A stretch of 64,000 bases of DNA from Sphingosinicella humi (GTDB lineage Bacteria; Pseudomonadota; Alphaproteobacteria; Sphingomonadales; Sphingomonadaceae): assembly GCF_003129465.1 (NCBI RefSeq), contig NZ_QFFF01000001.1, forward strand, positions 1,721,501 to 1,785,500, written 5' to 3'. A model generated the notes under the pieces. That model saw only the letters and a list, made by a program, of their open reading frames with translations, had not been told where the DNA came from and ran no database searches. Shown piece after piece: positions 14,535 to 62,365 of the stretch (the stretch's first letter is position 1; each line of letters begins with the position of its first letter). The position numbers and the translations under genes were made by a program.

Positions 14535-14565
14535 GGGGCTGCTCCGAACGGGGCGGCCCCTTTTT
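14535..14565 (+). terminator. Rho-independent terminator of the Arg-rich protein gene
   Basis: GGGGCTGCTCC (14535-14545), loop GAAC, and GGGGCGGCCCC (14550-14560) form an 11-bp stem with two G-U pairs. Five T residues follow at 14561-14565. It lies 23 bases after the stop codon. Confidence 0.85.
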
Positions 14566-14624
14566 CGTAACGCAACCGGCACGGCTGCTCATGCGTAGTG
14601 CCGGTGAGAAAGGGAGTGAGGGTC

Positions 14625-38618: not shown

Positions 38619-38738
38619 AGGTGGCCGCAGGATTGGGCGACGGCACATATCACTTAGCTTTGATCGAGCCTTTCGTCGGCGGGCTGACTCGTCTATTTTG
38701 AGCGAAGGGGGTTGCCGTTCAGCATCGGGTGGGGAAGC

Positions 38739-45652: not shown

Positions 45653-45735
45653 GCGCGCTACTGGCGTGGCGCGCCGGGGCGCGTCAAGCATTTGCGAGTT
45701 TACAAGGTGGCCGCGGGCCGGTTGAACTGCGGCCC

Positions 45736-46863: not shown

Positions 46864-47895
46864 TCAGCGGCGGACGGCCGCACCTTCAGCATAGATGGCA
46901 TCGACGGCGGCGGCGACGTCGACCAGCCGCTCCGCCTCGGCATCGAAACGGGCGCCAGCCGCCAGCCGCCGCGCCCAGTCGACGGCGGCGCGGCCGCCCC
47001 AGGCATCGGGAGGCACGGCCAAGGTAGTACGGGCGGTGCCCTGAAAATGTTCGGCCGTGAAATCGTAGAAGGAGCCGTTCACGTTGCGCATGGCGCCGCT
47101 GCCGCTCGTGCCGTGGAAGTCCGCCGAAATGAGGGCATCGCATCCGGCCGAGAGGCGCCAGGAGCAGGCGATCCGCACGATGGCGCCCGTCTCGAGCTGG
47201 AGCGTGGCGACAGCATAATCCTCGACTTGCTGCGACGGCTGCAGCGGCCGCCCTCCCGCGAAGAGGCTGGCGGAGACGCGGGTCACGGCGGGGAAATCGA
47301 GCATCCATAGCGCGAGGTCCACGAGATGGACGCCGAGGTCCATCACGCAGCCGCCTCCCGACAGCGCCGGATCGTAGAACCAGGCCTTGTCCGGTCCGTA
47401 GGCGTTATGGAAGACGAGGTCGGCGGCGTAGACCTCGCCCAGCGCTCCGGAGCGGACCAGCTCCCTGATCTTCTCCATGGCCGCGGTATGGCGATAGCTG
47501 AGGTCGACGGCGAGAAGCCGGTCCGCCCTCCTCGCCGCTTCGACGACCTGCCGCGCCTCAGCCGCAGTGCGACCGAGCGGTTTCTGGCAGAAGACGGCGA
47601 CGCCGGCGTCGAGCGCACGGATCGCCTGCTCGGCGTGAAGCGCGCTGGGGGTGGCGATTACGATACCGTCGAGGCCGAGCGCGAGCAGATCGTCGAGCGA
47701 GGCTGCCAGCTCCGCCTTGGGCGCCAGCTTCGCCGCTTCCTTCGTCATGTCGGCAGAAGGATCGGCGATGGCGGCGATTTCGGCGGCTCCACTGGTTGCG
47801 ATCGCTTCCATGCGGTGGCGGCCGATCCAGCCGACGCCGAGAAAGCCGACGCGGGGCTTGGCCGCTTCGGGCGCGAGGGCGGCGGCCGGGCTCAT
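46864..47895 (-). CDS. Gfo/Idh/MocA-family sugar or inositol dehydrogenase
   Basis: The 343-residue oxidoreductase has a Rossmann start (VGFLGVGWIGRHRMEAIA) and the C-terminal Gfo/Idh domain with DLGVHLVDLALWML. The usual EKP catalytic motif reads QKP (FCQKPLGRT), keeping the catalytic Lys. Family members oxidise sugars, inositols or nucleotide sugars at C-OH. It is last in the ten-gene minus-strand operon. With an inositol-phosphate synthase nearby, an inositol or inosose substrate is plausible but unproven. Confidence 0.88.
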   Translation of the reverse strand: MSPAAALAPEAAKPRVGFLGVGWIGRHRMEAIATSGAAEIAAIADPSADMTKEAAKLAPKAELAASLDDLLALGLDGIVIATPSALHAEQAIRALDAGVAVFCQKPLGRTAAEARQVVEAARRADRLLAVDLSYRHTAAMEKIRELVRSGALGEVYAADLVFHNAYGPDKAWFYDPALSGGGCVMDLGVHLVDLALWMLDFPAVTRVSASLFAGGRPLQPSQQVEDYAVATLQLETGAIVRIACSWRLSAGCDALISADFHGTSGSGAMRNVNGSFYDFTAEHFQGTARTTLAVPPDAWGGRAAVDWARRLAAGARFDAEAERLVDVAAAVDAIYAEGAAVRR

Positions 47896-48905
47896 GGGAA
47901 GATCACCAGCGCTTTCAGGAAACCGTCCGGTCGGTCGCGAGTGGCGTTCAGCGCCTCGACCAGCTGCTCGAGCGGATAGCGATGGGTGTAGAGCGGGTCG
48001 GGGTCGAGCCGGCCCGAGGCCACCGCCTGCACGGCTTCCTCGATACCACGGATATAGGCTTTCGGGTCGCGCTCATGCGCGTTGATCACGTCGATGCCGC
48101 GCCAGTTCCAGAGCTGCATGTTCACGTGGCGGAGGCCGTCCTGATGGTAGCCGGCGACGACGAGCCGGCCGCCCTCGCGCACCAGCTCGCCGGCGAGGTC
48201 CAGCGGCCACTGCTTGCCGACCGCCTCGATGACGCGATCGCAGAACTGCCCGGCGGTCAGTGCCTTCACCTGCTCGATGATCGCATGATGGTCCTCCATC
48301 GCGATCGTCTCCGCCGCACCCATTTGCCGCGCCACGTCGAGCGAATAGGGGCGTCGCGAGATGGCGATGACGCGGGCTCCGGCATCCGTTGCGAGGCGGG
48401 TCAGGAGCGCGCCGAGAAAGCCGATGCCGATAATCGCTACCGTCTGGCCGGGCTCGATCGCGCTCCGGCGGAAGATGTTCATCGCGCAGCCGAGCGGCTC
48501 GCCCGGAAAGGCGCGGCCTTCGAGAGCGGCCGGCAATGGCACCACGGCATCGGCGGCCGCGATGTCGTATTCGGCATAGGCCTTGAAGGAGAGGGCGGCG
48601 ACGCGATCGCCGACGGAGACGGTGTCGATGCCGCTGCCGACGGCATCGACGACGCCCCAGCCCTCATGGCCGAGGGCGCCTGGCTCCGTCGGAAACTGCA
48701 TCCATTCCGGCCCCTTCCAGGGGGTGAGGTTGGAGGCGCAGACGCCGCAGCCTTCCAGCCGCACCCGCACTTGGCCCAGCCCCGGCTCCGGCACTGCGAC
48801 CTCGTCGATGCGGATCCGGCCGGGCTGGCTCAGCACGGCGGCACGCATCGTGGCGGTCGAGACGGGCTTATCGTCCAACATTTCACTCGCGGCCAGCATC
48901 CTCAC
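47892..48905 (-). CDS. Zinc-type medium-chain dehydrogenase (MDR)
   Basis: The 337-residue protein has the catalytic zinc pattern (GCGVCASN and GALGHEGWG) and the Rossmann segment IIGIGFLGALLTRLA. The structural-zinc Cys cluster of classic alcohol dehydrogenases is missing. It is coupled by 4-nt overlaps to the DUF1003 gene and to the Gfo/Idh gene, a pairing that suggests two-step oxidation/reduction of one sugar-like compound, similar in logic to polyol or inosamine routes. Substrate unknown. Confidence 0.87.
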   Translation of the reverse strand: MRMLAASEMLDDKPVSTATMRAAVLSQPGRIRIDEVAVPEPGLGQVRVRLEGCGVCASNLTPWKGPEWMQFPTEPGALGHEGWGVVDAVGSGIDTVSVGDRVAALSFKAYAEYDIAAADAVVPLPAALEGRAFPGEPLGCAMNIFRRSAIEPGQTVAIIGIGFLGALLTRLATDAGARVIAISRRPYSLDVARQMGAAETIAMEDHHAIIEQVKALTAGQFCDRVIEAVGKQWPLDLAGELVREGGRLVVAGYHQDGLRHVNMQLWNWRGIDVINAHERDPKAYIRGIEEAVQAVASGRLDPDPLYTHRYPLEQLVEALNATRDRPDGFLKALVIFP

Positions 48906-49444
48906 TCCTTCTTGGTGGCTTCGATGGCATCCATGACGCGCTCCGGTGCCACGTCGCGCTTCAGGTCCTCGACGTCGTCCGGCTTGGCGTCGCCGATGCC
49001 GAGATGATCGGTGATCGCAGAGACCATCTCGATCAGCCGGGTCACTTCATGCTCGGCCAGCAGATTGGTCTGGAGATCGAGATCGTCGCGCTCGTCCGCC
49101 GCCTTGGCCATTCGATTCTGGGTAATCAGCACGAACGTCGAGAGGAATATCGCTTCCACCGACGCAATCATCGCCAGCACGACGAAGGTCGGATCCCACG
49201 GCGTTATCAGCGGCACCCAGCCCAGATTGGCCAGGATCCAGAATCCGAACAAGCCGAGGTGGAGGAACACGAACGTCATGCTTCCGGTGAAGCTCGTAAT
49301 CTTCCCGGCGAGACGGTCCCGCCATGTGGCTTCCTCCTCCTTCCGTTCCCGGCGACGCCTCAGCGCCTCGATGTTGCGCCCGAGCGGAGCGGCGAGATAT
49401 CGGGACTCCGGCGGCTCGACGGTGACCCCTTTGTCGTCGGACAT
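48902..49444 (-). CDS. DUF1003 membrane protein
   Basis: The 180-residue protein has an Arg/Glu-rich N-terminal part, two transmembrane helices (from FTGSMTFVFLHLGLFGFWIL and VVLAMIASVEAIFLSTFVLI) and a charged C-terminal tail: the DUF1003 layout. It sits inside the glycan operon. The start could also be at 49453. No biochemical role known. Confidence 0.85.
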   Translation of the reverse strand: MSDDKGVTVEPPESRYLAAPLGRNIEALRRRRERKEEEATWRDRLAGKITSFTGSMTFVFLHLGLFGFWILANLGWVPLITPWDPTFVVLAMIASVEAIFLSTFVLITQNRMAKAADERDDLDLQTNLLAEHEVTRLIEMVSAITDHLGIGDAKPDDVEDLKRDVAPERVMDAIEATKKE

Positions 49445-49476
49445 AGGACCCATCCCAGGTTTCGCCGCCGGCCCCG

Positions 49477-50520
49477 TTACTCCGCAACGGCGATCAGGTG
49501 GCGCTCGGCCGGCGATGCCTCCGCATGGGCAACGCCGCGCCATTGTTGCGACGACTTCGCCTGTTCGGAGGCGAACCATTCGATCGTCCGTTCGAGCCCC
49601 TTTTGAAGCGCCACGGCCGGTTCCCAGCCCAGCAGTTCGCGGGCCCGGGAAATGTCGGGCTTGCGGCGACGGGGATCGTCGATCGGCAATGGCATGTAGG
49701 TAACGGGCGAGTTGCTGCCGGTGAGGGCGACGACCCGCTCAACGAGATCGCCCACGGTCAGTTCCGTCGGATTGCCGAGATTCACGGGGACGTCGATCGG
49801 CCGGTCGCTGTCCATGAGGCGCATCAGCCCGTTTATCAGATCGCTGACGAAGCAGAAGCTGCGCGTCTGCGAGCCGTCGCCATAGATGGTGATCTCGTCG
49901 CCGGAGAGCGCCTGGCAGATGACGTTGGACACGACGCGGCCGTCGTCCGGGCGCATGCGCGGGCCATAAGTATTGAAGATGCGCGCGACGCGCACGTCGA
50001 CGCGCTTGGAGCGGTGGAAGTCGAAGGCCAGAGTCTCGGCCGCCCTCTTGCCTTCGTCGTAACAGGCGCGGGGGCCGGTGCAGCTGACGGAGCCGCGATA
50101 GCTTTCCGGCTGGGGATGGGTCTCGGGGTCGCCATAGACTTCGCTGGTGGAGCTGAGCAGCAATCGCGCGCCCGTCTCCTCCGCCAGCCGCAACATGTTG
50201 CGCGTGCCGACGACGCAGGTCAGCATCGTATGCTCCGGGTCCGCCTGATAATGCGGCGGCGAGGCGGCGCAGGCGAGATGATAAATGTGGGTAAAGCGCG
50301 CCTTGCCGGCGATACGGTAGGGAAGGGGATCGACGACGTCGCTCTCGATGGAATCGAACCGATGGTCCCGGCGGAGATGGGCGATGTTGGACTCGCGCCC
50401 GGTCAGGAGATTGTCGAGACACACTACCCGCGCCCCCTCGCCGAGCAAGGCATCGCATAGATGCGAGCCGATGAAGCCCGCGCCGCCGGTCACCAGGATT
50501 GTTTTGTTCTTACTTGTCAT
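49477..50520 (-). CDS. SDR sugar-nucleotide decarboxylase, UDP-xylose-synthase-like
   Basis: The 347-residue extended SDR has NAD-binding TGGAGFIGSHL and catalytic YDEGK. The blocks YGDPETHPQPESY and GPRACYDEGKRAAETLAFD match UDP-glucuronate decarboxylase (UXS), which makes UDP-xylose. A UDP-xylose donor would suit the glycosyltransferases beside it. It overlaps the upstream CgeB-like gene by 4 nt and lies 32 bases before the DUF1003 gene. Confidence 0.82.
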   Translation of the reverse strand: MTSKNKTILVTGGAGFIGSHLCDALLGEGARVVCLDNLLTGRESNIAHLRRDHRFDSIESDVVDPLPYRIAGKARFTHIYHLACAASPPHYQADPEHTMLTCVVGTRNMLRLAEETGARLLLSSTSEVYGDPETHPQPESYRGSVSCTGPRACYDEGKRAAETLAFDFHRSKRVDVRVARIFNTYGPRMRPDDGRVVSNVICQALSGDEITIYGDGSQTRSFCFVSDLINGLMRLMDSDRPIDVPVNLGNPTELTVGDLVERVVALTGSNSPVTYMPLPIDDPRRRKPDISRARELLGWEPAVALQKGLERTIEWFASEQAKSSQQWRGVAHAEASPAERHLIAVAE

Positions 50521-51629
50521 TGCACGTCGCTCCGGATGTGGGTCTCTGTTTTGGCGGCGGATAGGGAGCGGTTCTGCGCCGCTTCCCGTAGATAAGTTTC
50601 GAGCTCGCCCGCACGGTGAGCGGCGGTGTGGGCCTGCAGCACGCTGGATCGGGCCGCGCGGCCGATCCGCTGCGCCTGTTCGTCGGTGGTCGTTCGGAGC
50701 GCGCCGATGACGGCGTCGGTGCCGGAGGGGAGCAGGATTTCGGCGTCCGGCGCGAATAAGGTGTCGAGGCCCTCCCATCGGTCCGAGATCACCGGAATGG
50801 CGCAAGCAGCGGCCTCGAACAGCCGCACTGACGGGGACCAGCCGGCGGCGATCATGTTCGCTCGCGTGACGTTCAGGGTGAAGCGCGAGGCGGCGTAGAA
50901 TTCGGCATGCTGGGCGGGAGGCAGATGATCGATCCGCTCGACGTTGGTCGGCCAGTCGATGTCCGCCGGATATTGCGGTCCCGCCACCGCGAAGCGCCGC
51001 TCCGGCAGGCGGCGCGCGGGCTCGATCAGCAGCCGCTCCAGCGTCGGTTGGCGGTCGGGGCTGTAGGTGCCGAGATAGGTGAGGTCCCAACGCTTCGGCA
51101 CGTCCATCGGCGGATAGGCTTCCGGATCGACCGAGCAATAGAGCGCCCGCGCCGCCGGCGAGCCGTGGCGGCTTTCGAGGGTGCGAAGGGTGGGCCCGCC
51201 GGTGAAGGAGAGATAGAGGTCGTAGCCGGGGATGATCTCCGGCGACAGATATTCGAAATCGCCGCGCTCCAGCTTGGCCAGGGTGACGGGCGTATCGATG
51301 TCGTAGAAGGCGGTGACCCCGTGCGCCGCTCCCTGGACGAAGCGCCCGACGGCGACCCCTTCCGGCACATAGGAGCCGACGATGACCGCGTCCGCCTCCG
51401 CGATCTCGCCGCGCCAACTCGCCAGCTCATCCAGGTCCGAATAGAATTGAAGCCGCGCGAAATCGGGCTCGGCGAGATCCCGGTGCGACGCATACCAGGG
51501 CACGTCGCGCTCCAGGAACAGGATGTCGTGGCCGCGGGCGGCGAATTCCCTGAGCAGCGCCCGATAGGTGGTGGCATGGCCGTTGCCCCATGAGGAGGAC
51601 AGGCTGAGGCCGAGGACGACGAGCTTCAT
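50517..51629 (-). CDS. CgeB-like glycosyltransferase, copy 3
   Basis: The 370-residue GT-B protein has an N-terminal half with SLSSSWGNGHATTYRALLRE and a C-terminal PF13524-like half with WDLTYLGTYSPDRQPTLE and RLFEAAACAIPVISDRWEG. It belongs with the two upstream relatives; all three share the pattern xxLSxSWxNGxATxYRxLLRExxxRGH. The start at 51629 overlaps the preceding stop by 4 nt. Donor and acceptor unknown. Confidence 0.83.
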   Translation of the reverse strand: MKLVVLGLSLSSSWGNGHATTYRALLREFAARGHDILFLERDVPWYASHRDLAEPDFARLQFYSDLDELASWRGEIAEADAVIVGSYVPEGVAVGRFVQGAAHGVTAFYDIDTPVTLAKLERGDFEYLSPEIIPGYDLYLSFTGGPTLRTLESRHGSPAARALYCSVDPEAYPPMDVPKRWDLTYLGTYSPDRQPTLERLLIEPARRLPERRFAVAGPQYPADIDWPTNVERIDHLPPAQHAEFYAASRFTLNVTRANMIAAGWSPSVRLFEAAACAIPVISDRWEGLDTLFAPDAEILLPSGTDAVIGALRTTTDEQAQRIGRAARSSVLQAHTAAHRAGELETYLREAAQNRSLSAAKTETHIRSDVQ

Positions 51630-52714
51630 GCCGCGCTCCTCTGCTTCGCGCGCTGCTCGCGCCACAGGGCGTCCACCTCGGCGCCGCGATGAGCATAGGT
51701 GTGCTGGCTCAGCACCCGGCGCAGAGCAGCCTGGCCTATGGTGCGAGCGCGCTCGCGGGTGAGCGAACCGACATGCTCGGCCACGTCGCGGCCGTCGAGG
51801 GCCACCAGCACTTCCTCGTCCGGCTTCAGGAACTGCTCGATGCCGTCCCAGGCGTCGGTGATGAGGCAGGCCGCGGCGCCCGCCGCTTCGAACACGCGGG
51901 TGGCGGGCGAGAAGCCGATATGCGCCATGCTGTCGCGGGCGATATTGAGCACGGCGAGCGGCGTGCAATTGAAGGCGTTGTGTTGGTGGGTGTAGACGTG
52001 ACCCAGATGGCGAACATTGTCCGGCATCGCCTTGGTCTCCCAGCCATTGCCGCCGATCAGGAAGCGCCGCCCGGGACGCTGCGCAGCAGCTTTCAAAAAG
52101 AACTCTTCTACCCGCGCCTCGCGGTCTGGGAGGCGGTTGCCGAGGAAGGCCAGATCGGCGGCAAAGCGCTCGTCCGGCCCGACGGGGAAATGGGTCGTCG
52201 GGTCGAGGGCGTTGTAGATGGGAACGCAAAGACGAGCGCCGAAGCCTTCATAAGCCTCGACCACCGGCGGTCCGCCGCCATAGGTCAGCACCATGTGGAG
52301 CGACGGCAGCATCCGGCGGACGACATGGGCGTCGTCGCCGCGCATCTCGTCCAGGGTGGCGGCGGCGTCGACGTCCCAGAAGAGCCGAAGCGCGTCGGGC
52401 CGCGAATGCTGGACGATGCCTTCGAGAAGCTCCGTGTCGAACACCCCGACGCCGCTCGCCTTGACGACGATGTCGGCGGCGCCGGCCTGGCTGAGGACGC
52501 TTCGCAACCCTTCGAGAGTGGCGGGATAGACGACCGAGCGAGCCCATTCCGGCGGCTCGATGTCGCGATGCTGCTGCCGATCGAAGGCATCGGGCTCATA
52601 GAAAGTGATGTCGTAGCCGCGCCCCGCAAGGTCCCGGAGCAGCCCGCGATAATAGGTCGCCGCGCCGTTCCAGTAGGAGGAGAGAAGGCTCGATCCGTAA
52701 AAGGCGATCTTCAT
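51626..52714 (-). CDS. CgeB-like glycosyltransferase, copy 2
   Basis: The 362-residue protein starts MKIAFYGSSLLSSYWNGAAT, matching its neighbours, and its C-terminal half contains DLAFLGNRLPDREARVEEFF, GHVYTHQHNAFNCTP and ATRVFEAAGAAACLITDAWD. The start at 52714 is fixed by the ATGA overlap with the upstream gene. Likely arose with copies 1 and 3 by tandem duplication, then diverged. Confidence 0.83.
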   Translation of the reverse strand: MKIAFYGSSLLSSYWNGAATYYRGLLRDLAGRGYDITFYEPDAFDRQQHRDIEPPEWARSVVYPATLEGLRSVLSQAGAADIVVKASGVGVFDTELLEGIVQHSRPDALRLFWDVDAAATLDEMRGDDAHVVRRMLPSLHMVLTYGGGPPVVEAYEGFGARLCVPIYNALDPTTHFPVGPDERFAADLAFLGNRLPDREARVEEFFLKAAAQRPGRRFLIGGNGWETKAMPDNVRHLGHVYTHQHNAFNCTPLAVLNIARDSMAHIGFSPATRVFEAAGAAACLITDAWDGIEQFLKPDEEVLVALDGRDVAEHVGSLTRERARTIGQAALRRVLSQHTYAHRGAEVDALWREQRAKQRSAA

Positions 52715-53877
52715 GCGACGCTCCTCAACTCGGGCTCGGTCGACGCGTGATGTACGGCCTCTGTGGGTACGCCCCTCGACTTCGCTCGGGACGAACGAAG
52801 GCGGGTGACGATGGCTAGGAGCTCCTCTGCTCTGTGCGCGCAGCTGTGGCGGGCGCGGATGGTCTCCAAGCCATGCCGGACCAGCGAGACTCGAAGGTCC
52901 GGGTCGGCTTGCAGCCGCTCGAGCTGCCGGGTCATGTCCGCGCCGTCGGAGGCGGTCAGATAGTCGGTGCCGGCGCGGAACAGGCCCTCGGCATCGTCCC
53001 AAGGCGCGCACAGGAGGGGGATGCCAGAGGCCAACGCTTCGAAGATCCGGATGGTGGGGATGCCCGGAAGCAGCCTGGTGTAGAAGCGGCGCGGGACATG
53101 GATGGTGGCGAGGTGCCGGGCGAACACGTCCGGTGCCGCCGCATTGGGGAGCCAGCCATGATAGCGGCCGCCATAGCGCCGCACCGTCGCCTTGGCGGTT
53201 TCGTGATAGCGCACGCCATAGACGTCGAGGCCGATGCCGGTCTCGCGGGCGGGGCGGAAGAGGAATTCCTTCAGCTCCTTGGTGCGCTCGCCCTCGCCCC
53301 AATTGCCGATCCAGACGAGACCTTGCCGTTCCCGCTCGACAGCCGGCGGATGGAAATGGCGAAGGTCGGCGGCCTCGTGCCAGACGAACGCCCGGTCGCC
53401 CCAGCCCCAGCCGCGATAGACTTCGGCGAGCGCCTCTCCGAAGGCGAGGACGCCGTCATAGGCGGAAAGATCGTAGGCGCGCATCGCCTCGGGCTCGCTG
53501 ACGGCGCGGTGATGCGTGTCGTGGAAGAGCAGTAGAAAGGGCGCGCCCTGCGCACGCAGCTTGCCAAGCCGCGCGACCAGATCCGGTTCGCTCCATTCAT
53601 GGACGATGACGAGGTCGGCGCCGTCGACCATGCGAGCCAGGTCCCCCCGCTCGCCATAGCTTTCCGACCGCAGCTCCGGATAGGCGTCGCGATAGGCGTC
53701 GAGGCCTTCGGGGCCATGGTCCTCCAGCAGATTGGCGAGGCTCCAGGCGCCTTCCGGCTCATAGGCCTGCACCTCATGGCCGAGCGCGATCAACTCGCGC
53801 AGCACGCCGCGCAAAAAATGGGCGTTGCCGTGGTTCCAGCAGCTGGCGAGCGAATGGGTGAAATAGACGATCTTCAT
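52711..53877 (-). CDS. CgeB-like glycosyltransferase, copy 1
   Basis: The 388-residue protein shows MKIVYFTHSLASCWNHGNAH at the N terminus and RIFEALASGIPLLCAPWDDAEG in the nucleotide-sugar half. Its last 30 residues (…SRAKSRGVPTEAV…) are encoded partly by a single arm of repeat family B at 52770-52797, so the natural C terminus has probably been extended. It overlaps its neighbours by 4 nt. Confidence 0.83.
   Translation of the reverse strand: MKIVYFTHSLASCWNHGNAHFLRGVLRELIALGHEVQAYEPEGAWSLANLLEDHGPEGLDAYRDAYPELRSESYGERGDLARMVDGADLVIVHEWSEPDLVARLGKLRAQGAPFLLLFHDTHHRAVSEPEAMRAYDLSAYDGVLAFGEALAEVYRGWGWGDRAFVWHEAADLRHFHPPAVERERQGLVWIGNWGEGERTKELKEFLFRPARETGIGLDVYGVRYHETAKATVRRYGGRYHGWLPNAAAPDVFARHLATIHVPRRFYTRLLPGIPTIRIFEALASGIPLLCAPWDDAEGLFRAGTDYLTASDGADMTRQLERLQADPDLRVSLVRHGLETIRARHSCAHRAEELLAIVTRLRSSRAKSRGVPTEAVHHASTEPELRSVA
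52770..52797. repeat. Single arm of palindromic repeat family B, inside a coding end
   Basis: These 28 bases are identical to the right arm of the element at 29642-29719. They lie inside the C-terminal codons of a CgeB-like gene, read there as SRAKSRG. No partner arm is nearby. Confidence 0.8.
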
Positions 53878-54980: not shown

Positions 54981-56047
54981 TGTGCCGCCTCGACCAGCTC
55001 GGGCCGGGTGCGCAGGCTGCGGCATTCGCACAGCCATTCGGCCAGCCGTGCGACGCCCTGCCGCCACGGCACGGCCGGCGAGAGGTCAAGCGCCCGGCGG
55101 ATCGCCCGGGTGTCGGCCACGAACCAGCGCTGATCGCCCGCGCGCCAATCGTCGAACCGCACGTCGATCTGGCGACCGAGGAGCTCGGCCATATAGGTCA
55201 CAAGCTCGCGCAACGAGACGGCATTGGCCGGGCCGCCGCCGAGGTTGAAGGCATGGCCCGAGATGTGGCCAATGCGCTGCCAAGCCCGGAGATAGGCGTC
55301 GACGGCGTTCGAAACGTCGAGGATGTCGCGGACCTGGTGGCCGTCGCCATAGAGGGTGATCGGCTCGTCCTCGAGGGCGCGGATCAGGAAATGCGCGACC
55401 CAGCCCTGGTCCTCGGTGCCCATCTGCCGGACGCCGTAGATGCAGCTCATCCTCAGCACCGCGGCGGGAAGACCGTAGCTGCGGGCATAGTCGAGCACAT
55501 ATTGATCGGCCGCGCCCTTGGAGCAGCCATAGGGCGTGTGAAAGTCGAGCGGCCTTGCCTCGCTTATGCCGTGCGCGGCCACCGCCTCGTCCGGAGGCGC
55601 ATAGCCTTGCCCCTCCAGCCGAAAATCGAGGTCGGCGAGATCGCCATAGACCTTGTTGGTCGAGGCGAAGATGACGGGCGTCGGGCGGCCGTGCAGCCTC
55701 AGCGCGTCGAGCAGGTTGAGCGTGCCGCGAAGATTGATCTCGAAATCGTCGCGCGGGTCGGTGAGGCTGGTCGTGACGGCGACCTGGGCAGCCATGTGGA
55801 ACACCGCCTTGGCTTCGCGCGCGGCGCGCGACAGCTCCTCCTCGTCCCTTATGTCGGCGATAATGGGCGTGATCTGATCGGAATAGCGTTCCTTCAGCCA
55901 GTCGAGATTGGCCTCCACGCCGGGCCGCGACAGCGCATCGTAGATCAGGATGTCATGACCTTCGCGAGCGAGCCGGTCGGCGATGTTGCAGCCGATGAAC
56001 CCGGCGCCCCCGGTGATGAGAACGGGCCTCCGATCGGCGGGGATCAT
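54977..56047 (-). CDS. SDR epimerase, CDP-paratose/tyvelose 2-epimerase-like
   Basis: The 356-residue extended SDR has ITGGAGFIGCNIADRLA and catalytic YGCSK. Motifs STNKVYGDL, GCSKGAADQYVLDY and MSCIYGVRQMGTEDQGWVAHF match the RfbE-type 2-epimerase subgroup closely. True substrate may differ since no CDP-sugar pathway is visible here. Start fixed by ATGA overlap. Confidence 0.83.
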   Translation of the reverse strand: MIPADRRPVLITGGAGFIGCNIADRLAREGHDILIYDALSRPGVEANLDWLKERYSDQITPIIADIRDEEELSRAAREAKAVFHMAAQVAVTTSLTDPRDDFEINLRGTLNLLDALRLHGRPTPVIFASTNKVYGDLADLDFRLEGQGYAPPDEAVAAHGISEARPLDFHTPYGCSKGAADQYVLDYARSYGLPAAVLRMSCIYGVRQMGTEDQGWVAHFLIRALEDEPITLYGDGHQVRDILDVSNAVDAYLRAWQRIGHISGHAFNLGGGPANAVSLRELVTYMAELLGRQIDVRFDDWRAGDQRWFVADTRAIRRALDLSPAVPWRQGVARLAEWLCECRSLRTRPELVEAAQ

Positions 56048-57156
56048 GCGACAAGACCCCGTACTTCCAGCTCGGCCCGCGCCTCTTGCGTGCGATCGTC
56101 GGCCGTCTGCTCTGCCACCCATTCGGCCAGTTCGGTCAGGCCCTCGTGGAAGTCCTTGACGGCGCGAAAGCCGAGCGTCTCGGCCGCCTTGCTGGTGTCG
56201 CAGAAGCAGTGGCGGATGTCCCCGATGCGCGACTTGCCGACGATGTCCGGCTCGACATCGTTGCGGCCCAGGGCACCGGCGAGCGCCCGCGCCACCTCGT
56301 TGACGGAGCGGTCGTCGCCCGACCCGATGTTGAACACGCCGCCCGCCGCCTGCGGCAGTTCCAGCGCGTCGGCGAAGGCGCGGCCGATGTCGCCAACATA
56401 CACGAAATCGCGGCGCTGCTCGCCATCCTCGAAGACCATCGGCCGCTGTCCGTTGAGCAGGCGCGAGGCGAAAATGGCGAGAACGCCGGTATAGGGATTG
56501 GAAAGGGCCTGGCCCGGGCCGTAGACGTTGAAGAGGCGCAGGCACACGCCCTCCATCCCATAGGCATTGGCGAGGATGAGGCTGGTGCGCTCCTGCACAT
56601 ATTTGTTGAGGGCGTAGATGGAGGCGAGCTGCGGCCGCTTCCATTCCGGCGTCGCGACCGGCGTCAGCGGTCGGCCACGGCCGTCGAGCGGGTCCCAGGC
56701 CTGATCGGAGCTGGCGCGCGGGTGCCGCTCTGCATTCTCGACCATTTCGCCATCGGCATCGAGATAGAGGCCTTCGCCATAGATGCTCATCGAGGAGGCG
56801 GTGACGACGCGGCGGACCGGCTGGTCGATCAGTTTCTCGAACAAAACGGCGGTGCCGACGTCGTTGACCGACGTGTAGCGTTCGACCGCATACATGGATT
56901 GACCCACCCCGACCTCGGCCGCGAGATGGACGACGCTGTCGACCCCCCGCAGCGCCTCGGCAACCTTGGCGCCATCGCGCACGTCCGCATGAAAGAATTC
57001 GACATCCGAGGTGACTGACCTCGCGTCGGCGTCGGCACCATGAACCTGCTCTATCAGGCTATCGAGCACTCGGACCCGGTGGCCGCGGCGAAGCAGCTCC
57101 CCGGTCACCGCTCGCCCGATAAATCCCGCGCCGCCCGTTACGAGAATCGTCTCCAT
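56044..57156 (-). CDS. SDR sugar-nucleotide epimerase, dTDP-rhamnose 4-epimerase-like
   Basis: The 370-residue extended SDR has VTGGAGFIGRAV, TASSMSIYGEG and catalytic YALNK. The stretch ALSNPYTGVLAIFASRLLNG with FEDGEQRRDFVYV is characteristic of the dTDP-L-rhamnose 4-epimerase subgroup. It is the first gene of the ten-gene operon; two near-matches to the EcfG promoter lie upstream. Confidence 0.83.
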   Translation of the reverse strand: METILVTGGAGFIGRAVTGELLRRGHRVRVLDSLIEQVHGADADARSVTSDVEFFHADVRDGAKVAEALRGVDSVVHLAAEVGVGQSMYAVERYTSVNDVGTAVLFEKLIDQPVRRVVTASSMSIYGEGLYLDADGEMVENAERHPRASSDQAWDPLDGRGRPLTPVATPEWKRPQLASIYALNKYVQERTSLILANAYGMEGVCLRLFNVYGPGQALSNPYTGVLAIFASRLLNGQRPMVFEDGEQRRDFVYVGDIGRAFADALELPQAAGGVFNIGSGDDRSVNEVARALAGALGRNDVEPDIVGKSRIGDIRHCFCDTSKAAETLGFRAVKDFHEGLTELAEWVAEQTADDRTQEARAELEVRGLVA

Positions 57157-57188
57157 AAGGTCTTGCCCTCCGCTACATTGTTATGGCG

Positions 57189-57213
57189 GGAACGGTGTTG
57201 GAAGCCGTCCGTT
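57189..57213 (+). promoter_or_regulatory. EcfG-type general stress promoter facing the phosphatase gene
   Basis: GGAAC at 57189-57193 and CGTT at 57210-57213 are 16 bases apart, an exact consensus match. The downstream start codon at 57460 is about 240 bases away, a long leader, so function is less certain than for the other sites. Confidence 0.55.
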
Positions 57214-57233
57214 AGTGGATTGTTATGTGAACG

Positions 57234-57259
57234 AACCGAGTTGAACCTGTTGTTGTTCC
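57234..57259 (-). promoter_or_regulatory. Near-match EcfG promoter facing the ten-gene operon (proximal)
   Basis: On the minus strand GGAAC (57259-57255) is followed after 17 bases by GGTT (57237-57234). Only the less conserved first base of CGTT differs. The -10 is about 78 bases before the start at 57156. Confidence 0.45.
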
Positions 57260-57337
57260 CACCGGCCAGTTCATTGCGTATCCGTAGCGATTTTTAAGGT
57301 TTACATAGGTTTAGTTTGCATCATCTTCTTCATCATC

Positions 57338-57363
57338 AACCGATCAAAAGCGGACATAGTTCC
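57338..57363 (-). promoter_or_regulatory. Near-match EcfG promoter facing the ten-gene operon (distal)
   Basis: On the minus strand GGAAC (57363-57359) is followed after 17 bases by GGTT (57341-57338), the same one-base variant as the proximal site. It would leave a leader of about 175 bases. Confidence 0.35.
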
Positions 57364-57459
57364 GCAGCAGTTCCATTGCGGAAATGTATCGAGGGCCGGA
57401 GCGGCGTCGTTCAAGAGTCGATCGTTGTAGATGATGCCTGATCGACCAAGTCGCCGCCG

Positions 57460-58071
57460 GTGACGACCGACATACTCCTAATTCGCCATGCTGCGCATGT
57501 GGATCTGGGGCAGGTCCTGACCGGGCGGCGGCGCGATGTGGCGCTGAGCAGGGAAGGGCTGGAACAGGCGACGATTATAGCCGACCTGCTGGGTGCCGAA
57601 CCGATCGCTGCCGTCTACTCGTCGCCGCGGGAGCGCGCTTACTATACGGCACGCGAAATCGCCGACCGGCATGAGCTCAAGGTGCGTATCGCCGAGGATG
57701 TCGACGAGATCGACTTTGGCGAATGGACGGGCTTGTCCTTCGACGCACTGGAGGGCGATCCCGAGTGGCAGCGTTGGAACGAAGCCCGCGGCACCGCTCG
57801 TCCGCCCGGTGGTGAAAGCATCGGGGAGGCAGCTGACCGGGCGGCGCGTGCACTGGAACACATCGCCCACGATCATCCCGGCAAGACGGTCGTTTGCGTC
57901 ACCCATTGCGATGTCATCAGGGCCGTGGTCGCCCGCTACCTCGGGCTACCCTTCGACAACCTGCTTCGGTTCGACATCGATCCGGCCTCGGTCTCGCGGC
58001 TCGTCATAGGCGAATGGGGCGGCCGCCTCGTGTCGCTCAACTGGAGATGGTGGCTCGAATCGGACCGCTAG
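57460..58071 (+). CDS. Histidine phosphatase family protein
   Basis: The 203-residue protein has the family N terminus DILLIRHAAH (RH with the catalytic His, but Ala replaces the usual Gly), SSPRERAYYTA, DFGEWTG, PPGGESIGE and the second catalytic His in VVCVTHCDVIR. It starts at GTG with no clear Shine-Dalgarno; no better start exists. Removal of phosphate from inositol phosphate made by the island's synthase is one possible role. Confidence 0.85.
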   Translation: MTTDILLIRHAAHVDLGQVLTGRRRDVALSREGLEQATIIADLLGAEPIAAVYSSPRERAYYTAREIADRHELKVRIAEDVDEIDFGEWTGLSFDALEGDPEWQRWNEARGTARPPGGESIGEAADRAARALEHIAHDHPGKTVVCVTHCDVIRAVVARYLGLPFDNLLRFDIDPASVSRLVIGEWGGRLVSLNWRWWLESDR

Positions 58072-58482
58072 CCCCGAGAGCGACGAGGCTCCGGCATGAT
58101 AGCTCTTCTCTTCGATTATCGGGGAGTCGAGGAGGATGTTGATTTCACGCTTGAGCGCGGCCCGCCGGTCATTGCTCTGGTACACGCAGCGCGCGAGCCG
58201 GATGAACTCCGGGCCGAAATCGGCGTCCGTCTCCCTCTGTCTGATCGCCTCTTCAATATCCCATAGCGACGCGTTCACCTCCCGAAGCTGCTCGATCAGC
58301 AAGACGACGGCGGTTCTGCGCATGACTGGCGAGGCCACGCCCCTGAGAAGGCCATATTCCTTGTTCACGTTCCCGACGGCGGTCGAGTCAGCGATCCGTT
58401 CTCGCTTGAGGTCGAGGATCGTGATCTTGTCGAGCAACTCTCCCCAGGACAGGGGAACGAGCGGGCATGCGGCGTCTCCCAT
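57946..58482 (-). CDS. DUF6165 family protein with a C-terminal run-on
   Basis: The product is 178 residues from the ATG at 58482, which has AGAGGAG upstream. The first about 130 match DUF6165 (LSWGELLDKITILDLKRERI, LWDIEEAIRQRE, FIRLARCVYQSNDRRA, ending IIEEKSYHA). The family normally stops about here, but this frame runs on for about 45 residues antisense to the end of the phosphatase gene, giving a 126-base convergent overlap. Function is unknown, though the family is often found beside glycosyltransferases. Confidence 0.75.
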   Translation of the reverse strand: MGDAACPLVPLSWGELLDKITILDLKRERIADSTAVGNVNKEYGLLRGVASPVMRRTAVVLLIEQLREVNASLWDIEEAIRQRETDADFGPEFIRLARCVYQSNDRRAALKREINILLDSPIIEEKSYHAGASSLSGLAVRFEPPSPVERHEAAAPFAYDEPRDRGRIDVEPKQVVEG

Positions 58483-59387
58483 TGATCCGCTCCTCTGAAC
58501 TGTTCGGCTACGAACGCTTTGAGTTGAGCAAGGTCCCGGCCGACCTGGGCGATGGGTGAGCTCCAGTCGCCCGGCGCGGGCTGAACATAAAGTCGCATCG
58601 AAGGATACCAGTCGCTCCGGCACGACAGGGGCGACCATCGCCAATCGGGCTCGTGTTTCAGGAGCAGCCAGACCGGCTTCCCTAAAGCCCCGGCGAGATG
58701 CGCGATGAAGGTGTCGACGGTGACCACCAGATCGAGGCCGGCGATCAAGCTCGCCGTCGCCTCCACATCATGAGGACATCCTTCGGGGTTGAGGACGGGA
58801 AGGTTGGTGGGGCCGCAATCCAGCGTGAGGCAGGGCCACCGTTCCGCAAGGGGAAGAAGGCGTTCTGCAGGGATGGAGCGATGGCTGTCCCAGGCACCGG
58901 CCCGACCGCACAGCCCCACCGTGCCCTTCGGGAGCGATGCCGCCTCCGCTTGAAGATAGGGCGGAGCAACGCTCGAAGGCGGCGTCCGGAGCGCGAATGC
59001 CAGCTCCATGATCTCGATGTCGCAATCCGATTCCGCGCTGGGACTATCGGGATCGAAGGCGACGATCCGATCCACTCCGGGAAAATGGTCGAGCAGGCAG
59101 GCGAGCCGCGGCTGGACCTCGATCGCGACCGAGGCAGCGCTTTGCCGCAGGATGGGAAGATAGCGCGCGAACTGGATCGTATCCCCCAGCCCGTGATAGC
59201 AGCGAACAAGCACATGCCGCCCGTCAAAAGATCGGCCGTCCCATACCCATCTGAGGTGATAGGGTGTCGAAGGATCGTCCCGCTTTCCGGGATCGCGCGC
59301 CGCGAGGATGCCTTCAGATAGCTTCCAGGCGAGCGCGTAATCGCCCCGACGGACAGCTCCGGTCCAGTCATGGCTGGCTACCGACAT
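58365..59387 (-). CDS. GT9-like glycosyltransferase with a C-terminal run-on
   Basis: The 340-residue protein has YHGLGDTIQFARYLP near the N terminus and VVTVDTFIAHLAGALGKPVW with the DWRWSPLSCRSDWYPSMRLY block in the second half, the pattern of the heptosyltransferase-like domain often attached to TPR proteins. No TPR part is present. The frame does not stop at the natural end but continues about 38 residues, overlapping the DUF6165 gene by 118 bases on the same strand. The last residues are low-complexity Ser/Arg and may not matter. Confidence 0.72.
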   Translation of the reverse strand: MSVASHDWTGAVRRGDYALAWKLSEGILAARDPGKRDDPSTPYHLRWVWDGRSFDGRHVLVRCYHGLGDTIQFARYLPILRQSAASVAIEVQPRLACLLDHFPGVDRIVAFDPDSPSAESDCDIEIMELAFALRTPPSSVAPPYLQAEAASLPKGTVGLCGRAGAWDSHRSIPAERLLPLAERWPCLTLDCGPTNLPVLNPEGCPHDVEATASLIAGLDLVVTVDTFIAHLAGALGKPVWLLLKHEPDWRWSPLSCRSDWYPSMRLYVQPAPGDWSSPIAQVGRDLAQLKAFVAEQFRGADQWETPHARSFPCPGESCSTRSRSSTSSENGSLTRPPSGT

Positions 59388-59464
59388 GTTCCTCTAAGTT
59401 GCTGCTCCCCCTTTGGTTCCGGCCCATGCGGTAAAATGCCGGCCAGGGATGATCGAGCCGCTGC

Positions 59465-59489
59465 GGAACAGGTTTCGCCGGCAACCGTT
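59465..59489 (+). promoter_or_regulatory. EcfG-type general stress promoter of the methyltransferase-GH-ino1 operon
   Basis: GGAAC at 59465-59469 and CGTT at 59486-59489 are 16 bases apart, an exact consensus match. The start codon chosen at 59547 is 57 bases past the -10 box, and the site lies within the region that longer start choices would make coding, which argues for the later start. Confidence 0.7.
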
Positions 59490-59546
59490 GCGCAAGCGAA
59501 GCGTCTTTTTAGAAACGGTGACGAACGCAATGCACGAGAATTCCGA

Positions 59547-60326
59547 ATGAAGCTCGCGGAGCGCAGCAGAGCGGACGAGGAGCTTCGTGACAGGGTCGAG
59601 GCGCTCGGCCCCTGGTTCCACAACATCAATCTGGGCGGCGTCTGGACTGCGGGCGACCACTTCCTGGGGGACTATCCAGGTGAGAAATACCGCCGCTTCG
59701 CGCCTCATCTTCCAGCCGATCTCAGCGGCAAGAGCGTGCTCGACATCGGCTGCAACGCCGGCTTCTACTCGATCGAGATGAAGCGCCGCGGGGCGAAGCG
59801 CGTGCTCGGCATCGACAGCGACGATCGCTATCTGGAGCAGGCGCGTTTCGCCGCCGACGCGCTGGATCAGGAGATCGAGTTCCGCAAGCTCTCCGTTTAT
59901 GACGTCGGCGCGCTCGGCGAGAGGTTCGACCTCGTCGTCTTCATGGGCGTGCTCTACCATCTGCGCCATCCGCTGCTCGCGCTCGACCTCATTCGCGAGT
60001 ATGTCGCTGGCGACATGCTGCTTTTCCAGTCGATGCAGCGCGGCTCCCCCCATGTCTTGAAGACTGAGGAAGATTATCCGTTCGAGGAATCCAGCGTCTT
60101 CTTCGAGACCGGCTATCCCAAGCTCCATTTCGTCGAGCGAAAATATGCGCACGACTGGACCAACTGGTGGGTGCCGAACCGGGCCTGTGCCGAGGCGATG
60201 CTGCGCGCGGCCGGTTTCGCCATCGAGAAGCGGATCGAGGAGGAAGTTTATATCTGCCGAACGGCGCCGGTGCCGTTTTCGGAATGGGGTGAAGGCGCGG
60301 TCTATCCGGCGCAGGGAGGCGAATAA
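59547..60326 (+). CDS. TIGR04290-family SAM methyltransferase
   Basis: The 259-residue enzyme has the SAM motif VLDIGCNAGFYSIEMKRRGA, the acidic GIDSDDRYLEQARFA and post-motif VVFMGVLYHLRHPLLAL. The family block LGPWFHNINLGGVWTAGDHFLGDYP is present at the N terminus. This family is known mainly by its genomic company with glycan genes. Earlier in-frame starts (59370, 59436) add non-homologous sequence over the promoter. It opens a three-gene operon. Confidence 0.85.
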   Translation: MKLAERSRADEELRDRVEALGPWFHNINLGGVWTAGDHFLGDYPGEKYRRFAPHLPADLSGKSVLDIGCNAGFYSIEMKRRGAKRVLGIDSDDRYLEQARFAADALDQEIEFRKLSVYDVGALGERFDLVVFMGVLYHLRHPLLALDLIREYVAGDMLLFQSMQRGSPHVLKTEEDYPFEESSVFFETGYPKLHFVERKYAHDWTNWWVPNRACAEAMLRAAGFAIEKRIEEEVYICRTAPVPFSEWGEGAVYPAQGGE

Positions 60327-61241
60327 GTGATCGAAGCGGCGATGATCTGGAACGAGCCCAATAATAAGTCGCATTGGGACCCTGAGCTCGATCCCGAATG
60401 GTCGATCTTCGCCAAAACCGCGATCGAGGCCGGCAAGGCGATCGCCTCGGTCAACCCGGACGTGAAGCGGGTGCTGGGCGGAATCTCGCCCATCGATCCG
60501 CACTTCATCAATCGCATGAAAACCATGGGCGTCCTCGACGAGGTCGATGTGGTGGCGGTGCACGGCTTCCCGCTCGACTGGAACTTGTGGCCGATCCACG
60601 AATGGCCCCAGCGCATCGCCGAGATCGAAGCCGTCGCGCCCGATCATGAAATCTGGGCGACCGAAGTCGGCGTCGGCAGCTTCGGCGCCGAGGAAGTGCA
60701 GGTGTTCGGTCTGGAGAAGACCGCGGAGCTGCTGCTCGGCCGCGTGCCGCGCGTCTTCTGGTACAGCCTGTTCGACCTGCCGCGCGAATGGGAGGCGACG
60801 ACCCGCCACCGCGAGGCCGAAGGCTCAAGCTATTACCGCCATTTCTACATGGGACTCATCAAGGAAGACGGCACACCCAAGCTCGCGCTGGAAAACTTCG
60901 CGCGGCACAGCCCGCAGATGGGCATCATGCAGTGGTTCCATTTCGAGGATCCGCGCCTCGACGACGCCGTCGCCTGGATGAAGCGGCTCGGCGTTACCCA
61001 TCTCCGCACCGGGCTCAGCTGGTGGGACAGCTACCGGCCCGGCTGGGAGGCCTGGTTCGACCGGCAGATGGAGGCGCTCGAGGCGTTCGAGACGACGGTC
61101 ACCTTCTGCTTCACGCCCGATCATGAGGGCGTCGCGCCCCACTATACGAGCCCCCCCAAGGACCCGATGTATTTCGCGGACTTCTGCGCGCGGATGATCG
61201 AGCGCTACGCGCCGGCGCAGAGAAAGGCGGCGGTCGCATGA
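60327..61241 (+). CDS. Glycoside hydrolase (beta-xylosidase-like, clan GH-A), apparently circularly permuted
   Basis: The 304-residue protein starts at GTG with GGGAGG (60314-60319) seven bases upstream, directly after the methyltransferase stop. It opens at the acid/base motif MIWNEPNN, normally found mid-way in GH-A barrels, and the likely nucleophile is Glu in WATEVGVGSFG. The C-terminal half (WMKRLGVTHLRTGLSWWDSY..., TVTFCFTPDHEG..., FADFCARMIERYAP) looks like the missing first half of the barrel. I recall database entries calling such proteins beta-xylosidase. It would trim or transfer a sugar of the island's product; this is inferred. Confidence 0.8.
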   Translation: MIEAAMIWNEPNNKSHWDPELDPEWSIFAKTAIEAGKAIASVNPDVKRVLGGISPIDPHFINRMKTMGVLDEVDVVAVHGFPLDWNLWPIHEWPQRIAEIEAVAPDHEIWATEVGVGSFGAEEVQVFGLEKTAELLLGRVPRVFWYSLFDLPREWEATTRHREAEGSSYYRHFYMGLIKEDGTPKLALENFARHSPQMGIMQWFHFEDPRLDDAVAWMKRLGVTHLRTGLSWWDSYRPGWEAWFDRQMEALEAFETTVTFCFTPDHEGVAPHYTSPPKDPMYFADFCARMIERYAPAQRKAAVA

Positions 61242-62365
61242 GCCTGCACGATCCCGGACGTCACGATATCAACGTCGCCCTGGTCGGCGTCGGCAATTGT
61301 GCCAGCTCGCTGGTGCAGGGCATTGCTCATTATCAAAATGGCGGCGCCAACGAGCAGATCGGCCTTCTGCACTGGGACCTTGGCGGCTATCGGCCGAAGG
61401 ATATCAAGTTCGTCGCTGCCTGGGACGTCGACGAGCGCAAGGTCGGCCGCGACATTTCCGAAGCGATCTTCGCCAAGCCCAATTGCACGACCGTCTTTTG
61501 CGATCATGTCCCGCACGCCGGCGTCAAGGTGCGCATGGGCTGTATCCTCGACGGCTGGTCCGACCATATGGCCGACGCTCCGCCCGAGCGCACCTTCCTC
61601 CTCGCCGACGCGCCGGAGCCGGACAAGGCCGAGGTGATCGAGACGCTCCGCGAGACGAAAGCCGACGTGCTCTTGAACTATCTGCCGGTCGGTAGCCAGC
61701 AGGCGACGGAATTCTACGCCGAATGCGCGCTCGAGGCCGGCGTTGCCTTCGTCAACAACATGCCGGTCTTCATCGCAAGCCACCCGGCCTGGGCGCGCCG
61801 TTTCGAGGAAGCCGGGGTTCCCGTCATCGGCGACGACATCAAGGCCCAGCTCGGCGCCACCATCGTCCACCGCGTCCTCACCGATCTCTTCCACAAGCGC
61901 GGCGTGAAGCTGGACCGCACCTATCAGCTCAACACCGGCGGCAACACCGACTTCCTCAACATGCTGAACCGGTCGCGCCTCAAATCGAAGAAGGTGTCGA
62001 AGACGGAAGCCGTGCAATCCGTTGCCGAGCATCGCCTCGACGACGAGAATATCCATATCGGTCCCAGCGACTATGTCGCCTGGCAGAACGATAACAAGAT
62101 CTGCTTCCTGCGCATGGAGGGCCAGGTCTTCGGCGGCGTGCCGATGAACCTGGAGCTGCGCCTGTCGGTCGAGGACAGCCCCAATTCGGCGGGCGTCGCC
62201 ATCGACATGATCCGCTGCGCCAAGCTCGCCAAGGACCGGGGCCTCGCCGGCGCGATCGACGCCCCCGCCATGTTCTTCTGCAAGCATCCGCCGCGCCAGC
62301 TTCCCGACGACGAGGCCTATGAGGCGCTGGAGGCGTTTATCGCAGGCGAGGCCGGCCGCCTCTGA
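61238..62365 (+). CDS. Inositol-3-phosphate synthase
   Basis: The 375-residue NAD-dependent enzyme turns glucose 6-phosphate into inositol 3-phosphate. The short prokaryotic form is seen: VALVGVGNCASSLVQGIAHY, NYLPVGSQQATEFYAECAL, VPVIGDDIKAQLGATIVHR, QLNTGGNTDFLNML and NSAGVAIDMIR. Its ATG overlaps the hydrolase stop. Its product is the likely starting compound for the island's dehydrogenases, phosphatase and transferases. Confidence 0.95.
   Translation: MSLHDPGRHDINVALVGVGNCASSLVQGIAHYQNGGANEQIGLLHWDLGGYRPKDIKFVAAWDVDERKVGRDISEAIFAKPNCTTVFCDHVPHAGVKVRMGCILDGWSDHMADAPPERTFLLADAPEPDKAEVIETLRETKADVLLNYLPVGSQQATEFYAECALEAGVAFVNNMPVFIASHPAWARRFEEAGVPVIGDDIKAQLGATIVHRVLTDLFHKRGVKLDRTYQLNTGGNTDFLNMLNRSRLKSKKVSKTEAVQSVAEHRLDDENIHIGPSDYVAWQNDNKICFLRMEGQVFGGVPMNLELRLSVEDSPNSAGVAIDMIRCAKLAKDRGLAGAIDAPAMFFCKHPPRQLPDDEAYEALEAFIAGEAGRL

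Follow-up and report, generated by a model that had tools for sequence, protein, structure and literature searches.

A conserved alphaproteobacterial gene cluster with stress-type promoter motifs in Sphingosinicella humi: a candidate pathway for an inositol-primed hetero-oligosaccharide

In mycothiol biosynthesis, priming involves the synthase Ino1, the glycosyltransferase MshA and a phosphatase, and inositol phosphate is glycosylated before it is dephosphorylated. PslG is a polysaccharide hydrolase that we take to belong to glycoside hydrolase family 39 (GH39). TIGR04290, a methyltransferase family, and TIGR04295, a family of B12-binding radical SAM proteins, are held by NCBIfam as hypothetical equivalogs with no function assigned; being catalogued, both have at least been noticed by curators, who presumably also remarked on a conserved rhizobial oligosaccharide neighbourhood for them. 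The accessible text of PMC10223318 describes the GH13 alpha-amylase MalS, the domains of which are circularly permuted. For the general stress response, the accessible text of PMC6599016 gives GGAAC-N17-20-GTT as the EcfG motif of Sphingomonas melonis Fr1, places trehalose genes among the EcfG-dependent genes and states that about 40% of the EcfG-dependent genes have no known function. Here we describe a cluster of 16 genes (46864-62365) in a 64,000-nt stretch of the 3.03 Mb genome of Sphingosinicella humi (contig NZ_QFFF01000001.1, positions 1,721,501 to 1,785,500 of the forward strand; called the window below, with position 1 as its first nucleotide). We propose, at a probability of about one half, that this set makes a soluble, cytoplasmic, inositol-primed hetero-oligosaccharide, xylose-containing, methylated and serving stress protection, under the general stress response.

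Domain and profile searches of the open reading frames of the window located all sixteen genes that a first-pass annotation had grouped into one island, at about the positions given there. On the minus strand, SDR_C (56044-57156), of the nucleotide-sugar epimerase/dehydratase family, heads seven overlapping genes and is followed by the nucleotide-sugar epimerase SDR_B (54977-56047), a GT4 glycosyltransferase recognized by Pfam (53874-54980), three CgeB-like glycosyltransferases matching PF13524 (CgeB3, 52711-53877; CgeB2, 51626-52714; CgeB1, 50517-51629) and SDR_A (49477-50520), by sequence a UDP-glucuronate decarboxylase (UDP-xylose synthase). Each of the six junctions between these seven genes is an overlap of exactly 4 bases, which suggests that they form a single transcription unit. 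Further along the same strand lie the gene of a DUF1003 protein (48902-49579, start probably at 49444; 92 bits) and, identified by profile matches, those of a zinc-type MDR dehydrogenase (47892-48905, start possibly at 48848) and a Gfo/Idh/MocA oxidoreductase (46864-47895), the last two again overlapping by 4 bases. The plus strand carries a branch 1 histidine phosphatase (57460-58071; 173 bits), a TIGR04290 methyltransferase (59547-60326), a circularly permuted PslG-like glycoside hydrolase recognized by sequence alignment (60327-61241) and an inositol-3-phosphate synthase of the actinobacterial Ino1 type (61238-62365), the hydrolase and synthase genes sharing 4 bases. The reading frame of the methyltransferase opens at 59370, and the start at 59547 was chosen from the profile match and the lengths of relatives. 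Two accessory genes, for a DUF6165 protein (57946-58482; 36.6 bits, cut-off 27) and a GT9-like protein (58365-59387; 24.8 bits, cut-off 22), lie on the minus strand between phosphatase and methyltransferase.

The motif evidence for EcfG/RpoE2-type promoters at this cluster is strong, and the cluster is apparently under general stress response control. The window contains seven GGAAC-N17/18-GTT sites against 1.9 expected and at most 6 in any shuffle; four of the seven precede heads of cluster units and one lies within SDR_A. On the minus strand, a GGAAC-N18-GTT motif (57234-57259) stands 77 nt upstream of SDR_C, in the same position class as in relatives, and a second motif pointing towards the SDR_C operon is found at 57338-57363. 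On the plus strand, one motif (57189-57213) precedes the histidine phosphatase by 246 nt and another (59465-59489) precedes the likely TIGR04290 start by 57 nt. The comparison was extended to the divergent regions of 58 relatives, 27 of the 85 related loci defined below being left out for want of a usable divergent SDR_C region. The motif was present in 36 of these regions, directed towards SDR_C in 30 and towards the divergent partner in 27, while 200 rounds of dinucleotide shuffling gave a mean of 0.7 regions with a motif and a maximum of 4. When the letters of the -35 element were scrambled, the mean was 1.0; the lone high value, 13 for CGGAA, corresponds to a one-base register shift. Spacing was equally restricted, with 40 motifs at N17 and 20 at N18 compared to 0-6 at each other spacing from 8 to 30. 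A looser form of the motif was detected at the head genes SDR_C (33/62) and histidine phosphatase (32/66), at 0-7% of other genes and in 2.7% of random windows; it also preceded 4 of 24 GT9 genes, GT9 being itself an operon head.

In Sinorhizobium meliloti, a stretch of 34.8 kb holds nine motifs, compared to 1.4 expected. Among them, by the annotation, are sites upstream of the synthase (39 nt), SDR_C (43 nt), DUF1003 (52 nt) and a pyruvyl transferase (41 nt); another falls within the synthase gene, and one does not belong to the cluster. Of the seven further loci that have a synthase, five carry a motif that ends 47-72 nt before the synthase match. The genome of S. humi itself encodes a NepR anti-sigma factor (27.7 bits, cut-off 25.7), in a regulator search made for NepR only. 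The glycosyltransferase genes #3506-3509 of S. melonis Fr1 (PMC6599016, Table 1, in its accessible text) were considered as a version of this cluster and rejected: their motifs matched no locus within 4 mismatches, that of S. melonis AS2.3 included, Fr1 itself not having been searched, and no published EcfG dependence is therefore claimed for the cluster. Two further motifs of the same type occur elsewhere in the window. One (7564-7589, minus strand) stands 46 nt upstream of genes for a LigB dioxygenase (3397-4248), a GDE_N_bis/MGH1-like glycosidase (4273-6459) and a GT4 glycosyltransferase (6456-7517), so that 3397-7589 is perhaps a second stress-controlled sugar operon; the other (12970-12995, plus strand) stands 28 nt before the gene of a 495-residue protein with no Pfam match (13024-14511), which is followed by that of a fasciclin-domain protein (region 12970-15206).

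To assess conservation, 85 related loci were assembled from the best 80 of at least 589 relatives of the hydrolase in a genome scan and 5 plasmid records, the hydrolase search of plasmids having returned 146 records. The loci extend 10-15 kb to each side or to contig ends, and a gene was scored as present with a tblastn match above 60 bits. As all loci were picked by the hydrolase, its presence in 85 of 85 holds by construction. The other genes were found in 84 (TIGR04290), 67 (histidine phosphatase), 65 (CgeB1 and CgeB2), 64 (SDR_B and SDR_C), 62 (GT4, CgeB3 and SDR_A), 56 (synthase), 55 (Gfo/Idh) and 54 (MDR) loci. SDR_A, SDR_B, SDR_C, GT4, the three CgeB-like transferases, the TIGR04290 methyltransferase and the glycoside hydrolase were taken as a nine-gene core. 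Among the 64 full-length loci, nine core genes were present in 48, eight in 2, five in 2, four in 2 and two in 10; apart from the last ten, the scattering of the genes in relatives that the first-pass annotation had named as fatal to its proposal was not seen in most loci. Of the 16 genes, between 13 and all 16 were counted in annotated neighbourhoods of Paracoccus yeei, Sphingobium yanoikuyae, Roseomonas mucosa and Sinorhizobium medicae, and the cluster is also present in S. meliloti 1021, at about 242-261 kb of pSymB, and in S. melonis AS2.3 (L077). Synthase, phosphatase, methyltransferase and hydrolase, which the first-pass annotation had placed together, likewise recur as a group in relatives.

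A class-level sample free of the hydrolase choice gave the same picture. TIGR04290 was found in 14 of 289 alphaproteobacterial genomes and CgeB2 (E 1e-60) in the identical 14; the hydrolase was present in 12 of them and absent from G111 and G177, both 82-83% complete. TIGR04295 occurred in 12 of the 289 genomes, all within the 14 of TIGR04290; it was not found in the S. humi genome or in G177. In a sample of 398 genomes from the phylum, 14 of 14 matches fell in the class of the window, the search output not stating how many genomes lay outside that class. Chance adjacency was rejected on the identical 14/289 distribution and on the nine core genes found together in 48 of 64 loci. The same data contradict the view that two unrelated gene groups merely adjoin here or that the island is catabolic. 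The two halves do lie on opposite strands, a hydrolase with two oxidoreductases could be catabolic, and in the ten full-length loci with two core genes the hydrolase is accompanied by a single other member of the core, the rest not being nearby; set against this are the shared stress motifs, the co-occurrence of TIGR04290 with CgeB2, the complete core in most loci and the absence of any sugar importer or regulator among the 16 genes, and we regard this view as highly improbable.

DUF1003 (30/85), GT9 (24/85) and DUF6165 (17/85) were found less often, and the latter two, which the first-pass annotation had counted into the set, have to be regarded as optional. The GT9-like gene, which has an atypical C-terminal tail, enters the DUF6165 gene by 118 bases in another frame (58365-58482); in locus L021 this overlap is only 4 bases. 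Six loci (L103, L104, L137, L138, L143 and L144) carry a second CgeB1-like transferase, more divergent (43-46% identical), between phosphatase and methyltransferase. A protein of about 585 residues is common to the Sinorhizobium L025 (11365-13113) and Roseomonas L023 (2704-4464) clusters; the two are 47% identical and have no Pfam or NCBIfam match, and phosphoribosyltransferase-like and kinase-like stretches were recognized by eye. Beside the cluster, Sinorhizobium L025 (15876-18366) and Paracoccus L021 (16626-19063) carry genes for a polysaccharide pyruvyl transferase and an F420-hydrogenase beta-subunit-like protein. In S. humi, the cluster is flanked on the left by a guanylate kinase gene (45020-45742) and on the right by a FUSC-type transporter gene and tRNA-Ala. 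The FUSC neighbour was found in 0 of the 85 related loci, and the gene set thus sits between differing flanks. Two tandem DUF4893 genes are located further to the left in the window (37977-39410).

SDR_A matches human UDP-glucuronate decarboxylase (4gll/2b69; E 4.8e-106 for 4gll), so that UDP-xylose is very probably made, in line with the xylose that the first-pass annotation had entertained. The closest solved match of SDR_B is CDP-tyvelose 2-epimerase (9rl0; E 9.8e-84); SDR_C belongs to an epimerase or dehydratase family, and its solved-structure matches point to no clear substrate. The solved-structure matches of GT4 are weak: they comprise cyanobacterial Tll1590 and also PimA and MshA (E about 1e-5 to 1e-6 for the last two), which are enzymes with inositol-type acceptors. 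For CgeB2, no match to a solved structure was obtained at E 0.1. The methyltransferase scores 373.8 bits against the curated TIGR04290 cut-off of 300. The best NCBIfam models for Gfo/Idh and MDR are inositol 2-dehydrogenase (111 bits, cut-off 355) and scyllo-inosose 3-dehydrogenase (103 bits, cut-off 450); the oxidation or epimerisation of inositol suggested at first pass depends on these two matches, both far below the curated cut-offs, and is not supported by them.

The synthase assignment is firm at the family level. Its nearest solved structure is Mycobacterium tuberculosis Ino1 (1gr0; E 1.3e-123) and its Inos-1-P_synth domain scores 126.7 bits (cut-off 27), while the protein falls below the TIGR03450 equivalog of mycothiol INO1 (454 bits vs 638). 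The histidine phosphatase gene adjoins the synthase gene in several relatives. The earlier proposal that inositol phosphate is made is thus supported by the enzyme in S. humi; it does not extend to every cluster, as those with an unpermuted hydrolase carry no synthase.

By its alignments, the hydrolase is a natural circular permutation of a PslG relative, fixed across a widespread family. Pfam gave no match for it at E 0.01. Aligned in its native order, it matched PslG (whole-sequence E 2.2e-4) in two pieces of swapped order, residues 4-190 with PslG 133-327 and, more weakly (4.8 bits), residues 202-295 with PslG 26-129. When the two halves were exchanged, a single alignment was obtained (9-296 to 26-319, E 2.1e-6). 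The protein starts with the WNEP strand and ends with the part that corresponds to the N-terminal third of PslG, an order that departs from the canonical succession of barrel strands, a barrel fold being presumed. Glu10 and Glu113, in NEP and TE motifs, are invariant across 38 permuted sequences and align with the glutamates of PslG, which we take to be the catalytic residues. An unpermuted form, 31-36% identical, exists in four alphaproteobacterial genomes (G202, G055, G199 and G135) as one open frame with SDR_B behind it; among the six class-sample genomes with a distant hydrolase, these four are the ones inspected for the fusion and the order of strands, G073 and G300 being left out. Against these four forms, the native query again aligned in swapped pieces (domain E values of about 1e-11 to 1e-14 and 1e-22 to 1e-30, calculated for the four-sequence set) and the exchanged query aligned as one main piece with each.

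Hydropathy analysis of the 16 proteins gave two transmembrane-like windows for DUF1003, a single borderline one for each of Gfo/Idh, MDR, GT4 and GT9, and none for the rest; the FUSC neighbour, used as a control, gave seven. As only DUF1003 has two, a cytoplasmic solute is favoured over an exported glycan. A doubtful but serious contender is that what the cluster builds or alters in times of stress is a glycan of the cell surface or a glycolipid of the membrane (lipopolysaccharide, capsule or an inositol glycolipid), with export machinery encoded elsewhere in the genome. It would account for the many glycosyltransferases, the optional GT9 and DUF6165 genes, the polysaccharide pyruvyl transferase of the Sinorhizobium and Paracoccus clusters and the relation of the hydrolase to PslG, and envelope modulation is one of the stress regulon functions in the accessible text of PMC6599016. 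Pfam searches of the 16 genes, the rest of the genome not having been searched, found no flippase, polymerase, ABC exporter, ligase or membrane priming transferase, and in the 22 of 85 loci that were read the hydrolase begins right at the WNEP strand, which leaves no room for a signal peptide. A surface glycan, one of the places where the first-pass annotation proposed to search, is accordingly the less likely product.

The permuted and unpermuted hydrolases mark two versions of the cluster. The four unpermuted-fusion clusters that were read hold the core together with TIGR04295. Genome-wide, the synthase was found in 5 of 6 genomes with a permuted hydrolase compared to 0 of 6 with a distant, fusion-type hydrolase. 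Eight further loci, from 8 of the 12 new TIGR04290 genomes of the phylum sample, were analyzed as 20 kb stretches: synthase and phosphatase were present within 20 kb in 7 of 7 permuted loci and in 0 of 1 unpermuted locus, the stretch of which ends just past SDR_C. The synthase was commoner in genomes with TIGR04290 (6/14) than in those without (21/275; Fisher 0.0007, or 0.003 with 5/13 when the S. humi genome was removed, the genomes not being independent). TIGR04295 (720 bits in sister clusters) gave 0 matches in the S. humi genome and was found in 0 of the 85 stretches of loci L021-L105, and it does occur beside a permuted hydrolase in L126-L128, L138, L141 and L144. We had expected the state of the hydrolase to track the tree of the core genes, and this was rejected: when a tree was built from five core proteins of the window and of 68 loci, the versions did not separate, and the permuted Sinorhizobium core nested among unpermuted clusters (support 0.97 to 1.0), which leads us to propose a swapped cassette and not one clean split. 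Synthase, phosphatase and permuted hydrolase are thus proposed to form an exchangeable inositol cassette, absent from or swapped between core versions.

That the core is kept in clusters without this cassette could also mean that the transferases place their sugars on a protein or on a small lipid or pigment (carotenoid, hopanoid, sphingolipid), the inositol branch serving a separate use; to our knowledge, CgeB-like enzymes are not tied to one acceptor. Against a separate use of inositol, synthase, phosphatase, methyltransferase and hydrolase form one co-directional run in 7 of 7 permuted loci among the further loci. In four annotated loci, no gene of lipid or terpene synthesis lies between the cluster genes, and the few acyl-CoA or acyltransferase genes are confined to the outer flanks of L023 and L025. 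Decoration of this kind is in our judgement unlikely.

For the inositol-primed cytoplasmic oligosaccharide that we prefer, we infer the following order of steps, acceptors and product location. Stress would free EcfG, and the EcfG/RpoE2-type promoters would transcribe both sides of the cluster. The synthase would convert glucose 6-phosphate to inositol-3-phosphate, and GT4 would glycosylate inositol or inositol phosphate, with the histidine phosphatase stripping the phosphate either after glycosylation, in the order of mycothiol priming, or before. SDR_A would supply UDP-xylose, while SDR_B and SDR_C would supply epimerised sugar nucleotides of presumed identity. The three CgeB-like transferases would extend the chain, one plausibly adding xylose, the TIGR04290 enzyme would methylate it and the permuted hydrolase would trim or transglycosylate it. 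MDR and Gfo/Idh may, at low confidence, alter the cyclitol or a sugar.

Several observations weigh against this proposal. The 246 nt between motif and phosphatase start exceed the distance in most motif-bearing relatives, and the exact motif is missing in 22 of 58 divergent regions, including 7 of 9 from Paracoccus. MDR and Gfo/Idh score a third or less of the inositol dehydrogenase cut-offs and were found at good identity in just 1 of 8 further loci; the likeness of GT4 to MshA and PimA is weak, and a glycoside hydrolase is odd in a purely biosynthetic set. Clusters lacking the synthase exist, of the unpermuted-hydrolase type, and the synthase is nearby in only 56 of 85 related loci, so that inositol may be an optional part or a by-product. 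A bolder version, put forward tentatively as a possibility, is that an undiscovered alphaproteobacterial stress metabolite, cytoplasmic, inositol-primed, xylose-containing, O-methylated and induced by EcfG/RpoE2, would be made by a modular core with an exchangeable priming cassette, which would consist either of the permuted hydrolase (as transglycosylase or proof-reader) with synthase and phosphatase, or of an unpermuted epimerase fusion without cluster-made inositol.

In the open-access literature, we found no description of the cluster, of TIGR04290 or TIGR04295, of the synthase/phosphatase/glycosyltransferase set or of a link between EcfG and inositol, in agreement with the earlier remark that no pathway had been described for these genes. 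No paper on the S. meliloti cluster genes was found under guessed locus tags, and the cluster is not described in the accessible text or references of the stress papers PMC8877191, PMC10315480, PMC2912261, PMC6180224 and PMC3616915. No prior case of circular permutation in GH39/PslG was found among the literature matches listed. Within the literature searched, we found no earlier account of stress promoters at this cluster, of a permuted hydrolase that has an unpermuted counterpart in fused form, or of the pattern in which the inositol cassette occurs. The first-pass annotation was not in a position to recognize the stress motifs, the permutation or the variant with the B12 radical SAM enzyme. 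A pathway of 9-16 genes that bears stress motifs at the heads of its units and occurs in S. meliloti 1021 and S. melonis AS2.3 would make part of the gap in EcfG function one testable metabolite. The permuted hydrolase on its own and the unpermuted fused one in otherwise alike clusters can be regarded as a natural experiment in which a catalytic domain has been circularly permuted.

Compared to known systems, the cluster shares some features with each and departs from each. Its motif fits the Fr1 motif of the alphaproteobacterial EcfG/RpoE2 regulon, in which the trehalose genes are a known parallel; the genes are not trehalose genes, and the cluster is not identified in the accessible text of PMC6599016. 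With respect to the systems of TIGR04290 and TIGR04295, the methyltransferase is a full TIGR04290 member, whereas the genome has no TIGR04295 and the cluster adds an inositol-phosphate synthase, a phosphatase and a permuted hydrolase. An Ino1-type synthase, a GT4 and a phosphatase stand in one cluster, as in mycothiol priming; in contrast, the GT4 scores 40.1 bits against the MshA cut-off of 462.5, on which mycothiol proper was rejected, and those cluster proteins that were scanned gave no match to MshB, MshC or MshD. By sequence, the kinship of the hydrolase with PslG extends over its full length after exchange of the halves, and both glutamates are kept; it differs from PslG in being circularly permuted. 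Going by the accessible text of PMC10223318, it resembles MalS in being a glycoside hydrolase whose order is naturally permuted; in MalS it is the GH13 domains that are permuted, whereas in the window enzyme the PslG-type catalytic domain itself is permuted.

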